Of a stretch of 30,406 bases of DNA, positions 25,971 to 30,406 are shown one piece after another. The notes under the pieces are model-generated. The model was not told the DNA's origin. It made no database searches and saw only the letters and a list, made by a program, of their open reading frames with translations. This stretch comes from a virus. Both the position numbers and the translations under genes were made by a program. Every line of letters begins with the position of its first letter. Within the stretch, counting starts at the first letter, position 1. The stretch lies in IMG/VR virus record IMGVR_UViG_3300032241_001421, positions 1-30,406 of that record, one strand, 5' to 3'.

Positions 25971-26042
25971 CTTCCATCTAGCATTATGCGGTCGTCCGTC
26001 CGCGTAGCCCTAGAACGGCAGCAAATTTTAAGGAGAAACAAA

Positions 26043-27137
26043 ATGGGACGCCCGATTAATAACAGATACATTGGCAATACCAGTGGATCTGGACAAACAA
26101 TTCAAGCTACAGCATATTTCACAGGTCTAGGCGGAACTGCAAACGCTTGGATATCTTCGCAAAAAGCAACAAATACCTATAACATGGTTTCCGCAACTGG
26201 GTTGTATGCCGATCGTGTTGAATTAACAAACGGCGGAGTAGCATTACAGCCCGGGCAGGCCAACATCACTGTACAACCATACGGTTATACAGGCAGTGGT
26301 GCAACTGCAATTGCCAATTTAGGAGTAACCGGTTATACAGTTACATCGGGCGGTACAGGAACATCTGCTGCTGGTTATATTCCAGGACAAATTCTCAGTG
26401 TAAACAGCGGAACATACAACACCAACCAGCGTGCAAATGCAGCGGTAACTAGTGTTACGTTGGGCGCAGTTGGTAACATTACCACAAATACCGGTTATAC
26501 AGTCGGGGATACATTTACATGGAATTATGCAGGGTGGTTGACACCTACTGTAGTTACAGTTGCAACAACAAGCGGCAACGGTAATATCAGTGGTGTAACA
26601 ATTACATCCGCAGGTACAACAACCAATATCAGTATCAGCAACACCACAGTATACAGCAGTGCAACTACAGCTAATGCATGGGCAAACACTGCCAACTTTA
26701 ATCTACGTTGGGACGTATCCGGCTTAGCCGTGTACAATCAAGGCGATTACACAACACCACCAACTAATCCAATAGCATTTACTCCTGCTAGTGGTCATGG
26801 TACAGGTGCTGCTGCAACAGCTAGTTATGGCATATCTTCCACACGTATTACCAATGGCGGGTCTGGGTATCAAGCTGTAAATGCAACAGTAAGTGGTGCT
26901 GCTGGCGCAATTGTTGCTACTACTGTAACAAGCGGTAGTGTAACTGCACTGTCTGTTATTGCTCCCGGAACTTTCGGACCAACACGTCCTACTATTGCCA
27001 TTACTCCAATTGCAAGTCTCGAATACGCCGAAGTTATTAGAAACTTAACAGTTACAACATGGTCATATAACACATATGAGTGGGTTCCAACTGGTACAGT
27101 TCCGCAACCAGGTCAAGCTGTACTACAGACAGCTTAA
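26043..27137 (+). CDS. Probable abundant virion protein, Gly/Thr/Ala-rich, 364 aa
   Basis: The start ATG (MGRPINNRYIGNTSGSG) follows a perfect AAGGAGAAACAAA; an earlier in-frame ATG at 25986 lacks a ribosome site. The composition is Gly, Thr, Ala, Ser, Asn and almost no charge, typical of beta-structured virion proteins. Internal repeats contain GYTVTSGGTGTSAAGYIPGQ and GYTVGDTF, and a 12-base DNA motif (CCGGTTATACAG) recurs at about 26329 and 26493. The C-terminal ~40 residues are a distinct cap (EYAEVIRNLTVTTWSYNTYE). A late promoter, a strong ribosome site and a very strong terminator argue for high late expression, such as a fibre, decoration or neck protein. Family not recognised. Confidence 0.7.
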   Translation: MGRPINNRYIGNTSGSGQTIQATAYFTGLGGTANAWISSQKATNTYNMVSATGLYADRVELTNGGVALQPGQANITVQPYGYTGSGATAIANLGVTGYTVTSGGTGTSAAGYIPGQILSVNSGTYNTNQRANAAVTSVTLGAVGNITTNTGYTVGDTFTWNYAGWLTPTVVTVATTSGNGNISGVTITSAGTTTNISISNTTVYSSATTANAWANTANFNLRWDVSGLAVYNQGDYTTPPTNPIAFTPASGHGTGAAATASYGISSTRITNGGSGYQAVNATVSGAAGAIVATTVTSGSVTALSVIAPGTFGPTRPTIAITPIASLEYAEVIRNLTVTTWSYNTYEWVPTGTVPQPGQAVLQTA

Positions 27138-27140
27138 TAA

Positions 27141-27214
27141 CTGCCCTGCAAAAGCAGGCAGACTCAGCGAAACCCCGGTGATTAGCCAGAGCGAAATCAC
27201 CGGGGTTTCTGCTG
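27141..27214. terminator. Double hairpin, bidirectional terminator between convergent genes
   Basis: A small hairpin (CTGCCCTGC AAAA GCAGGCAG, 27141-27161) lies just after the structural gene's stop. It is followed by a perfect 15-bp stem GAAACCCCGGTGATT / AATCACCGGGGTTTC (27169-27183 and 27195-27209) that extends further as CAGC/GCTG. It separates the plus-strand structural gene from the minus-strand 27216-27716 gene. Confidence 0.85.
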
Positions 27215-27215
27215 A

Positions 27216-27716
27216 CTAAAACATTTTACGTATATCGAGGTTGTCTGGAATTTTTCCAATATCCTTTACGAAAAAAGCACACAACGGGTTCTCGCCGTCT
27301 GAAAGTGGTACCGCAAGAAGGTGACCATTTTTAAGTTTTGGAAAATACCATTTCACATCTGGCCAGGTATTGATTATTTCAAGGCGTAGAAAACTTGGCA
27401 TATAACCTTTAATAGGATTAAAGCAGAAAACATCAAAATCTTTGTCCATTAGGTATACCAACGGCATAACTTCAAGGTCACCCAAGTGCATATCACCAAT
27501 TATTACACTCCAATCTAGCGGCATCTGCACATTGTATTGGCCAATTCGAATGTCAATGCACGGGCTATTAAAGCTTTCAAGGAAAATCAACGGTAAAAAA
27601 TAATAATCAACATCGGCCTGGTTTGAGTAATCTAAAATGCAATAGCGTAGATCTTCAACACGATCTGGTATTTGATTAATTGCATAAGATCTGTTGTCAT
27701 GGGTTAGAATTCTAAT
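27216..27716 (-). CDS. Hypothetical phage protein, 166 aa, probable AUU start
   Basis: The frame is open from 27761 and has no ATG, GTG or TTG until the TTG at 27590, which lacks a ribosome site and would cut off 42 protein-like codons. A perfect AGGAG (27724-27728) lies seven bases upstream of an ATT codon (27714-27716); an ACG (27717-27719) is the next candidate. The protein would read (M)RILTHDNRSYAINQIPDR, then LPLIFLESFNSPCIDI, GDMHLGDLEVMPLVYLMDKD and KLKNGHLLAVPLSDGENPLC. It looks like a globular alpha/beta protein with no known motif. A late-type AGTAAATA lies upstream. The AUU call is an inference from spacing and reading frame. Confidence 0.65.
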   Translation of the reverse strand: MRILTHDNRSYAINQIPDRVEDLRYCILDYSNQADVDYYFLPLIFLESFNSPCIDIRIGQYNVQMPLDWSVIIGDMHLGDLEVMPLVYLMDKDFDVFCFNPIKGYMPSFLRLEIINTWPDVKWYFPKLKNGHLLAVPLSDGENPLCAFFVKDIGKIPDNLDIRKMF

Positions 27717-27745
27717 CGTACTTCTCCTGCCGTGTAATTGACAGG

Positions 27746-27753
27746 TATTTACT
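27746..27753 (-). promoter_or_regulatory. Late-type promoter variant AGTAAATA
   Basis: The minus strand reads CAAGTAAATACC 30 bases upstream of the proposed AUU start. It shares the GTAAATA variant with the tail-fibre promoter. Confidence 0.4.
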
Positions 27754-27796
27754 TGGTATTCTTAACTATTGTTTAAAAAGATCAATAAGATATATT

Positions 27797-27835
27797 AAGG
27801 CAAACTAGATAGCAGGCCAGCATCTAGTTTGCCTT
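27797..27835 (-). terminator. Hairpin terminator after UvsW C-half
   Basis: 14-bp perfect arms AAGGCAAACTAGAT / ATCTAGTTTGCCTT with an 11-base loop, 23 bases after the UvsW C-half stop, followed on the minus strand by an A/T-rich stretch without a clean T-run. Confidence 0.7.
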
Positions 27836-27858: not shown

Positions 27859-28698
27859 CTAATAAGTTGTTTTCTCAACTGAATAGCTGTATTGCACATC
27901 GGCATAGAATTTTTTACGTTTTAACAAATGCCTGTTAGAAAACTTACATTTGCTAGAAATATCGTAGATTTCTACTGAGTCTTTGTCATCTGCTTTACGT
28001 AGGCCACGACCTATGCTTTGTATTACTCTGACAAAACTTTTTCCAGGTTCTACTAGAACAAGATTAAAGATTCTGTTAATTGATATTCCGGTAGATGTTG
28101 TTCCGTATGTTGCGATCATTATTGCGTTTTCAGCTAAATTAATTTCTTTATAATGCTCTTTACGCTTGGTGCTTTTCATTTGTCCGCTAATGAACGTGGA
28201 CTCCGGCATCAGCTCATGCAATAATTCGCCCGTTTCTATCCTGTCAATCAGCACCAATGTATTACCGGTTTTGGCAATTTCTTGGATCTTTTCGGCTAAC
28301 CATTGTATTCGGGTCTTATTGGTAACCAAAAACTTCAATTCTTCCTGATAGTTGTTGTATACAACAGACTCCTGGGTATGCAAGATGTTGACATGGCACT
28401 GGGCTAAATGGCCTTCATCCTGTAGCTCCTTGGCGGTGAGCCGGCCAATTATTGGCCCAATTGCGCTATAAAGACTTGCTTGATTGTATTCTTCTTCCGG
28501 TATCGTACCGGTTAATCCCCATCGAATGGGTATGTTGGCAAACGTAGTTGTAAGCAAACCATGCAAGACGTTCATGTTTTTCACACTATGACAGTTAGAC
28601 ACTACGGCCCGTTCTACTATATAATTGTGATCATCCTGTACATGTAGGTTGTAAACTTGATCAGGTTTACTGATTTCTCGGCGACTTAGCAGTTTCAT
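27859..28698 (-). CDS. UvsW-like helicase, C-half gene (C-intein + C-extein)
   Basis: The first 35 residues (MKLLSRREISKPDQVYN, LHVQDDHNYIVERAVVSN) are a C-terminal split intein ending Ser-Asn before Cys. The 244-residue C-extein then begins CHSVKN, finishing the helicase box DE|CH, and carries the other SF2 landmarks: GLTGTIPE (motif III), LVLIDRIETGELL (motif IV region), ATYGTTSTGISINR (motif V) and VIQSIGRGLRK (motif VI). UvsW unwinds branched and R-loop structures in recombination-dependent replication. The start lies inside the 3' end of the endonuclease gene (32-base overlap), so it is probably coupled to it. It is functional only if trans-spliced to the 29615-30406 product. Confidence 0.88.
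   Translation of the reverse strand: MKLLSRREISKPDQVYNLHVQDDHNYIVERAVVSNCHSVKNMNVLHGLLTTTFANIPIRWGLTGTIPEEEYNQASLYSAIGPIIGRLTAKELQDEGHLAQCHVNILHTQESVVYNNYQEELKFLVTNKTRIQWLAEKIQEIAKTGNTLVLIDRIETGELLHELMPESTFISGQMKSTKRKEHYKEINLAENAIMIATYGTTSTGISINRIFNLVLVEPGKSFVRVIQSIGRGLRKADDKDSVEIYDISSKCKFSNRHLLKRKKFYADVQYSYSVEKTTY
28594..28698 (-). other. Split intein, C-fragment in UvsW
   Basis: 35 residues with block F (VYNLHVQDDHNYIVERAVVSN in part) and a terminal Asn followed by Cys+1. The usual penultimate His is Ser (VVSN|C). Confidence 0.8.
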
Positions 28699-29578
28699 AT
28701 AGGTATCCTATCTTTCTTGCAGTTTCAGAATCAAATCTAGCTAGATCTGGCAATGGTACATTAGACGTTAGCCATTGTTGATCAATTAGCAATATTTTAT
28801 AATCGTGTTGTTTTGCCCAGTCTTTAAGGACAGTATATTTTGCTTCCCATTTAGTGCCATTAAACAAGTTGTAAGGTTTGACCTCAACTACAAGTTTATC
28901 AACATGATCAATAAAATCAACGATGTACACATAATTCTTACCATCTAACATGTACATTAAACGAAGTTGTTCGTATTCAGATTGTTGATTATGATAATGG
29001 TATAATGCTTCCCAGCTAGATCTGTATTTTTTACCATCAAATGTTGAATTCCATCGACCAAATCGATTACTAGATTTTGGTGTAAATTTTCCAGTTAATA
29101 TTAAATTTGTTATTGTTTTGGACAGATGGCACTTCTCCTCGTCAGAGTGTAGTCGTCCATACATTCCGTTATTTTTGCCAGAATTCTGTTGTCCTATTTT
29201 ATGTTTGGTCTCCGTTGAATGTTTTTTACCTGTAAATGTACCAGGTTTTCCTTTACTCCAGGGTATGCCGGTGTTTAAATTTTTCCGTATAGTCTCACTG
29301 TTCATATTCCATGATTTTTTTCCTCGATTTATTGCCAACTGATGTTTTATATCATATTCTGTTATTTCACCACAAAACAATTTATCAAAGTTTTCAATCC
29401 ATATACTAGTACGTGTGTTGGACAATCTAAGCCTAAATACATTTTTATTTTTTCCCGTTATTATTACCCCATTCGACAACTTAATTAATGATCTATTATA
29501 GTCATCTATTCTTAGATTTTGATTATAATTTTCTAAAATACTATTGAATCGCGTTATTATATTTTCATACGTTGCCAT
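28667..29578 (-). CDS. Homing endonuclease, NUMOD3 + PD-(D/E)XK-type, 303 aa
   Basis: Lies between the UvsW half-genes. The first ~95 residues are unassigned (LRIDDYNRSLIKLSNGVIIT...). Residues ~105-155 hold two NUMOD3-type DNA-binding repeats (WSKGKPGTFTGKKHSTETKH; NSGKNNGMYGRLHSDEEKC). Residues ~178-270 are the probable nuclease: FDGKKYRSSWEALY with Glu190, YVYIVDFID with Asp221, and VVEVKPYNLF with Glu232 and Lys234, followed by KYTVLKDWAKQHDYKILLID. The E...D...ExK order fits a PD-(D/E)XK fold. This is unrelated to the Vsr-like enzyme in the gp41 locus. A CATAAATA late promoter lies ~30 bases upstream. The ribosome site is weak (AGGTATTTT). Confidence 0.8.
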   Translation of the reverse strand: MATYENIITRFNSILENYNQNLRIDDYNRSLIKLSNGVIITGKNKNVFRLRLSNTRTSIWIENFDKLFCGEITEYDIKHQLAINRGKKSWNMNSETIRKNLNTGIPWSKGKPGTFTGKKHSTETKHKIGQQNSGKNNGMYGRLHSDEEKCHLSKTITNLILTGKFTPKSSNRFGRWNSTFDGKKYRSSWEALYHYHNQQSEYEQLRLMYMLDGKNYVYIVDFIDHVDKLVVEVKPYNLFNGTKWEAKYTVLKDWAKQHDYKILLIDQQWLTSNVPLPDLARFDSETARKIGYLYETAKSPRNQ

Positions 29579-29606
29579 AAAATACCTATATGTCTTTGAC
29601 TGTATG

Positions 29607-29614
29607 TATTTATG
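29607..29614 (-). promoter_or_regulatory. Late promoter CATAAATA abutting the UvsW N-half stop
   Basis: On the minus strand the stop TAA of the N-half is followed at once by CATAAATACATAC, which drives the endonuclease gene. Positions may be off by one base. Confidence 0.75.
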
Positions 29615-30406
29615 TTAATAGTTGATAATGTCGTGATCAACAGTTATTTCATCAGCTCGGCACCACCCGATGGTGGTTAAAAACTTATGATTACCAGTAA
29701 CCTGTATTTTTGAATGATTATCAAATTCTAATTCATACATCTTTTCATTTGTTGAATCGGTTAGATTGCAATGTTGTTTTATTACAGTGTCAACTTTGAA
29801 TTGTTGTAACTTCTCAGAATAGTTGATAACCTGTTGCCCAGACGATATATCCTTTATTGGAATATATCCGGTAGGTGTTAAAACACGCATATCACCATTA
29901 AAACATTCATCGCATACCACTGCCACTAGATTATCCAGGAACACTGTTAGTTGTTCATCATCCAGCGCGTCCTTGTTCTTTTTGTCAAGGACGTTAAGGC
30001 TTTGCCACGTACATATGGTATGGGTCCTATCATATTCCTTACGATCTCCATAAAGCACTCCAACGTCTAGACCCACATTCCTATAATCCTCTTCTGTTTG
30101 CAACACAAGGTTCTTATTTGGAACGATAACTATGGTACGGCCATATTTTTCAGCCAGCTTTGATAAGCTGGCAGTGATGATCGTTTTTCCTGCCGATGTA
30201 GGAGCCACAGACACGCCCTGCAGGTTGTTGATACATTCGTTGATTGCCTGCGCTTGATAATCCCGTAGCTGTATGGGTTGTCCGGCTGCCCTATGATCCG
30301 CCGGCCATACTATGTGGCTTAGGAAATTTTCATCAATTTCGTCAAACTCGAATGTATGATTAGCCCTTAGATCAGTTATGTCGAACTCGTATCCTGCGGC
30401 TACCAG
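29615..30406 (-). CDS. UvsW-like helicase, N-half gene (partial; N-extein + N-intein)
   Basis: The frame enters from the right edge, so the true start is outside the window. Visible N-extein of 167 residues: RAAGQPIQLRDYQAQAINEC (Q-motif-like), Walker A APTSAGKT, IVIVPNKNLVLQTEEDYRN (motif Ia), then motif II beginning VAVVCDE. There the extein stops and Cys begins a 96-residue N-intein (CFNGDMRVLTPTGYIPIKD, VTGNHKFLTTIGW, ending DEITVDHDIINY). The upstream (N-terminal) UvsW domain is outside the window. The protein must be joined to the 27859-28698 product to restore the DExH box and the ATPase. Its stop is directly followed by the endonuclease late promoter. Confidence 0.9.
   Translation of the reverse strand: MVAAGYEFDITDLRANHTFEFDEIDENFLSHIVWPADHRAAGQPIQLRDYQAQAINECINNLQGVSVAPTSAGKTIITASLSKLAEKYGRTIVIVPNKNLVLQTEEDYRNVGLDVGVLYGDRKEYDRTHTICTWQSLNVLDKKNKDALDDEQLTVFLDNLVAVVCDECFNGDMRVLTPTGYIPIKDISSGQQVINYSEKLQQFKVDTVIKQHCNLTDSTNEKMYELEFDNHSKIQVTGNHKFLTTIGWCRADEITVDHDIINY
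29618..29905 (-). other. Split intein, N-fragment in UvsW
   Basis: 96 residues from Cys1. Block A CFNGDMRVLTPTGYIPI; block B VTGNHKFLT with the conserved His. The insertion point is between DE and CH of the helicase DExH box, a highly conserved site as is usual for inteins. Confidence 0.85.

Follow-up and report, generated by a model that had tools for sequence, protein, structure and literature searches.

A gene on the minus strand of the window, the 30,406-nucleotide stretch of viral DNA analysed here, appears to be translated from an AUU codon at 27716, a start that is strongly supported by comparison with homologues. The combination of this weak start codon with a hairpin-masked Shine-Dalgarno sequence and a late promoter suggests that the phage keeps the protein both low and late. 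A double gate, in which the product would be kept low by the weak codon and late by the hairpin, is the reading we favour, with a probability of roughly 0.6.

Translation start of the window gene

The coordinates of the gene and of the elements surrounding it are listed in Table 1. The minus-strand frame is open from 27761 to 27216, and the first in-frame ATG, GTG or TTG is codon 43 (TTG, 27590-27588). A first-pass annotation made from the sequence had proposed that this gene starts at the ATT, and its description of AGGAG seven bases ahead of the ATT, with no ATG, GTG or TTG between the upstream stop and that codon, was borne out; its statement that the TTG was the only such start was not correct, as further in-frame canonical codons exist downstream. 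The same annotation had regarded the 42 codons ahead of the TTG as protein-like, and the coding-type position bias of codons 2-42 (differences of 0.187/0.081/0.533) indeed resembles that of codons 43-166 (0.151/0.059/0.530), whereas ten pseudo-codons upstream of the ATT lack this bias (0.634/0.593/0.644). Three-base periodicity sets in exactly at the start-column codon, with none before it.

Table 1. Features of the AUU-start gene and its surroundings in the window
Feature	Position	Strand	Details or basis
Coding sequence	27216..27716	minus	166 residues, ATT start read as fMet, stop TAG 27216-27218; phrog_11279
ATT start codon	27716-27714	minus	start column in 156 homologues; no alternative start upstream
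Shine-Dalgarno AGGAG	27728-27724	minus	7 bases between AGGAG and ATT
TAAATA, very probable T4-type late promoter core	27746..27751	minus	motif enrichment; late sigma factor in relatives
Predicted leader hairpin CCUGUC (8-nt loop) GGCAGG	27726..27745	minus	predicted folds, swap test, control genes
Strong inverted repeat, terminator-like, between uvsW and the gene	27797..27835	minus	-24.6 kcal/mol, z -4.8
Inverted repeat AACCCCGGTGATT...AATCACCGGGGTTT, terminator-like, just past the stop codon, between convergent genes	27170..27207	minus	sequence

Initiation at the internal TTG, the codon chosen by the ORF lister as the first in-frame ATG, GTG or TTG, would yield a protein of 124 residues. However, codons 2-42 are under purifying selection, contain the invariant residues N8, D29 and D37 and make up the first strands of the predicted fold, and the TTG itself is not conserved, being replaced by TTA in L191 and L194, CTG in L198 and L195, CTT in L202 and CTC in L179. 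This start is refuted by the comparison with relatives and is hardly credible.

The 15 open codons upstream of the ATT, and an out-of-frame ATG (27700) located 16 bases into the gene, could be taken to indicate an upstream start in a longer frame or an out-of-frame start followed by a frameshift, but the upstream bases lack periodicity, and the upstream stop lies just five codons from the start column in L195 (ATA) and L227 (ATT) and four codons from it in L100, with no start between. The out-of-frame ATG is missing at that place in L191, L195, L198 and L181. Both variants are very improbable and were rejected on the evidence of these relatives. An error converting ATG to ATT during sequencing or assembly might be suspected in a metagenomic contig such as the window; however, this ATT context recurs in several contigs that come from different samples, and in sister lineages ATA, ATC or ATT stands in different flanks. 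Such an error is refuted by the independent contigs and sister lineages, and its probability is negligible.

Start codons across homologues

The gene is common to giant T4-like phages, and matches to the 166-residue protein were found in 58 phage records and in hundreds of IMG/VR contigs. With tblastn, the alignment to the 58 phage records started at the ATT codon (query residue 1) with a single exception; among the fetched loci it started at residue 1 in 243 of 255 and at residue 2 in 10 of 255, and the annotated start coincided exactly with the ATT column in 12 of 14 isolates examined. The codon at the start column of 156 distinct homologues was ATG (130), GTG (3), TTG (3), ATT (11, including one false case, L120), ATA (5), ATC (1) or CTG (3), with neither ACG nor any further codon type among them. 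L120 was ruled out as an ATT start by an in-frame ATG five codons upstream.

With L120 excluded, 15 near-cognate cases have no ATG, GTG or TTG between the upstream stop and the start column, and in the remaining four (L185, L202, L179 and L178) a candidate start lies upstream in frame but lacks a Shine-Dalgarno sequence. In L199 and L183 an ATG occupies the start column and a stop codon lies immediately upstream; L199 sits inside the near-cognate clade on the best tree. The proposal of an AUU start is therefore upheld by homologues with ATG at the same column and by relatives in which ATT, ATA or CTG follows a good Shine-Dalgarno sequence and no alternative exists. Homologues with the TTG as their start, or with an ATG at another position, had been named in advance as evidence against it, and only L120 and a small group beginning MSRILNL, which has a one-residue N-terminal insertion, were found to differ.

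An independent isolate, Vibrio phage 2.275.O (MG592671), has an ATT start behind AAGGAGG, and its product read from the ATT is predicted to begin fM-LIITPENIPFEMTTVHDTAPDEMYCTL. The GenBank start of this gene (NVP2275O_010; MG592671.1 9513; L087:2501) appears to lie 12 codons too late, the annotation being truncated because of the ATT start. No relatives of the Vibrio 2.275 protein were found in IMG/VR. The start codon in PA5oct is TTG. Comparison of the homologues shows recurrent use of AUU, AUA and CUG, and probably also of AUC, as start codons in this family.

The near-cognate state required 6-7 changes on a tree of 147 proteins, at least four of them on well-supported branches, a count that is an estimate given the long branches in the tree and the scoring of L120 as near-cognate there. 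Median Shine-Dalgarno duplex energies were -7.4 kcal/mol for near-cognate and -3.2 kcal/mol for canonical starts, with values of -6 or below in 95% and 18% of cases, respectively. The raw P value for start type against Shine-Dalgarno strength, 1.6e-10, is inflated by relatedness; phylogenetically independent pairs (4-7) had the same direction with none opposed, without reaching 0.05 for near-cognate starts. The comparison shows an association of near-cognate starts with strong Shine-Dalgarno sequences, most AUG members having weak ones.

In order to examine gene specificity, a codon-usage census covered 200 kb of a relative, G001, with 207 coding ORFs, and this gene was the sole one in which a Shine-Dalgarno sequence preceded a near-cognate codon at the inferred coding start. 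No further odd start at an inferred coding start was found in these 200 kb or in the window. The observation of an AUU-start gene with a strong Shine-Dalgarno sequence is confirmed by these sequence comparisons as real and not due to chance. Two coding ORFs of G001, at about 33.7 and 54.3 kb (L264 and L265), have no ATG, GTG or TTG in their first 44-58 codons and lack a Shine-Dalgarno sequence; they may be fragments of split genes.

Late promoter and leader hairpin

TAAATA is concentrated 0-50 bases upstream of ORF starts, with 10 of 17 occurrences in the window and 41 of 73 in G001 in this position, and relatives encode a T4-type (gp55-like) late sigma factor (phrog_12791, E=6.7e-87 in G001). 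The TAAATA upstream of the window gene is therefore very probably a T4-type late promoter.

The CCUGUC arm of the leader hairpin begins directly after TAAATA and occupies 27745-27740, promoter positions -5 to +1, and the 3' arm overlaps the Shine-Dalgarno sequence. The paired arms co-vary in 23 distinct TAAATA-led leaders of the gene, as in CCUGC/GCAGG, CCUGGCA/UGCCAGG, UCUCCUGA/UCAGGAGA and UAUCUGCC/GGCAGAUA. A covariation count by column on a MAFFT alignment was set aside in favour of a swap test, as the register of the hairpin shifts from clade to clade. The mean pairing score of the 23 leaders was 14.6 with their own arms and 10.5 with swapped arms, and none of 5000 swaps reached 14.6. The 44 other TAAATA-led ORFs used as controls had no pairing excess (7.9 vs 8.1), and just one of the 44 scored 14 or more, so that the hairpin over the Shine-Dalgarno sequence sets this gene apart from nearly all other TAAATA-led genes tested. 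The fold of the window's own leader is moderately unusual (z -1.7), and no Rfam family matched the leader. In the window's clade, the comparison shows a gene-specific, covarying hairpin directly behind TAAATA.

The hairpin is also present in AUG members of this clade, indicating that the hairpin is a layer distinct from the weak start. TAAATA is absent from the leaders of the near-cognate genes L179 and L181, of the CTG cases and of the Vibrio case, and the two gates are therefore not always found together; in L194 the strong arm pairing behind TAAATA is absent. Another TAAATA-led ORF, near 9.9 kb of L266 (G001 about 69.9 kb, minus strand), has its Shine-Dalgarno sequence covered by a hairpin, UAUCUCCA/UGGAGAUA, and is a further candidate for late gating of this kind.

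It is possible that, given a strong Shine-Dalgarno sequence, the start drifts neutrally to AUN or CUG in a gene of which little protein is needed, with no role in control. The interchange of ATT, ATA, ATC and ATG inside one clade speaks for such drift, with which the Shine-Dalgarno association is equally compatible; the repeated origins in this one gene, with none in other genes of a relative, and the gene-specific covarying hairpin on the same Shine-Dalgarno sequence speak against it, and drift without control is considered somewhat unlikely.

Predicted protein and gene neighbourhood

The gene product matched the phrog_11279 profile over residues 2-163 (E=2.1e-51), a family for which no function is annotated, and no credible match to the protein was found among Pfam and PDB sequence profiles. 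Its structure model (pLDDT 88.4) matches inteins and Hedgehog autoprocessing domains over its full length (Z up to 11.9, 130-133 residues). Residue 1 of the model aligns with intein residue 6, so that the protein has no counterpart of the catalytic Cys1, and none of the family's invariant or nearly invariant columns is occupied by His. On both grounds the protein is not expected to be an active intein, and a free-standing, non-splicing Hint-fold protein is predicted from the model. It thus resembles the Hint fold of inteins and Hedgehog domains but differs from them in being free-standing and in lacking Cys1 and the conserved His, with a likeness invisible to sequence search.

In RaK2, PA5oct and the window, a gene of this family adjoins uvsW, followed by phrog_11758 and phrog_11058. 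The window adds, between these otherwise conserved neighbours, a plus-strand gene (25986-27137) for a repetitive Gly/Thr-rich protein with no match in PHROG or Pfam. The uvsW-like helicase of the window (27859-30406, minus strand) is split: its N-part carries an intein N-domain (Pfam Intein_splicing, E=1.2e-07), its C-part opens with what appears to be an intein C-segment (ending VVSNC), and between the two lies a separate NUMOD3/endonuclease ORF (28667-29578) with its own TAAATA. The arrangement resembles a split intein accompanied by a free-standing endonuclease. The predicted Hint-fold protein lacking catalytic residues (27219-27716, minus strand) thus adjoins a helicase with a split intein.

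Proposed mechanism and comparison with known systems

Transcripts from T4 late promoters start about six bases after the TAAATA core. This spacing would place the transcript start near 27740, and late mRNA is therefore predicted to lack the 5' arm of the hairpin. At the first gate of the proposed mechanism, read-through transcripts from uvsW would fold the Shine-Dalgarno sequence into the hairpin and be poorly translated, and late transcripts, beginning beyond the 5' arm, would leave it free; however, the terminator-like repeat after uvsW may leave the hairpin little read-through to silence. At the second gate, the strong Shine-Dalgarno sequence on late mRNA would place the 30S subunit on the AUU codon, which would be badly read by fMet-tRNA and often rejected by IF3, holding output at a low set-point. 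In AUG relatives a similarly low output might be reached via a weak Shine-Dalgarno sequence. In S. aureus reporters, an AUU or AUA start with an extended Shine-Dalgarno sequence gave about 10-30% of AUG output (PMC13009471).

The suggestion that the AUU start is a control device is plausible because weak starts recur together with strong Shine-Dalgarno sequences and because this gene has a hairpin over its Shine-Dalgarno sequence. One form of control, comparable to infC and sigR, would be an IF3 sensor, in which output tracks the level or activity of IF3 and the phage thereby reads the translation state of its host. AUU, AUA, AUC and CUG are all near-cognate starts, non-canonical starts are repressed by IF3 in bacteria (PMC5472188), weak third-position pairs such as AUU/CAU are disfavoured by IF3 (PMC10158994), and the medium-dependent output from the ccpN AUA start offers a precedent (PMC13009471). 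However, the product belongs to phrog_11279 and has a predicted Hint fold rather than being IF3, and AUG members occur within the same clade, so that a response to IF3 is not essential to the family. Sensing of IF3 is regarded as unlikely, and IF3 control is no more probable than a fixed low set-point. Also doubtful is a composite in which a trade-off between Shine-Dalgarno and start-codon strength would give the low set-point, the hairpin would serve as a time gate and AUN output would read the host's IF3 state.

The double gate that we favour has parallels in several known systems. In infC (AUU in E. coli, AUA in S. aureus) an AUN start likewise stands behind a strong Shine-Dalgarno sequence; the window product, however, is unrelated to IF3, autoregulation is not expected, and its family includes AUG members. 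The sigR gene of Streptomyces (GTC), which has also been misannotated in databases, and ccpN and cvfC1 of S. aureus (AUA/AUU) share a conserved non-canonical start at which poor decoding keeps output low, but these genes are cellular, whereas the window gene is a phage gene with a late promoter and hairpin in its clade. Nivinskas et al. reportedly described in 1992 an internal AUU start in T4 gene 26; there, AUU initiation in a T4-type phage is internal to a longer protein, whereas here it is the only start. The T4 genes e, soc and I-TevI start with AUG, and their ribosome-binding sites are covered by hairpins with the 5' strand in or close to the late promoter. Like the window gene they have TAAATA, a Shine-Dalgarno sequence in the 3' arm and a 5' arm outside the predicted late transcript; the window gene adds a near-cognate start, and its late transcript start is predicted from the T4 spacing. 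The same late-promoter hairpin arrangement has been described for e and I-TevI, and inhibitory hairpins have also been described for soc and 49 (PMC3014915).

Conclusion

In conclusion, the start codon is real and well supported, and the arrangement, as far as can be read from sequence, varies known mechanisms. To our knowledge, near-cognate starts are documented in few bacterial genes and in hardly any phage genes. Standard annotation truncates such genes, as in Vibrio phage 2.275.O, and the analysis also exposes a family of free-standing Hint-fold proteins unseen by sequence profiles. The Vibrio isolate makes the AUU start open to testing. In this one gene near-cognate starts have arisen repeatedly across giant phages and AUG sister lineages provide natural controls, and the reason for keeping a bad start codon is therefore directly testable.
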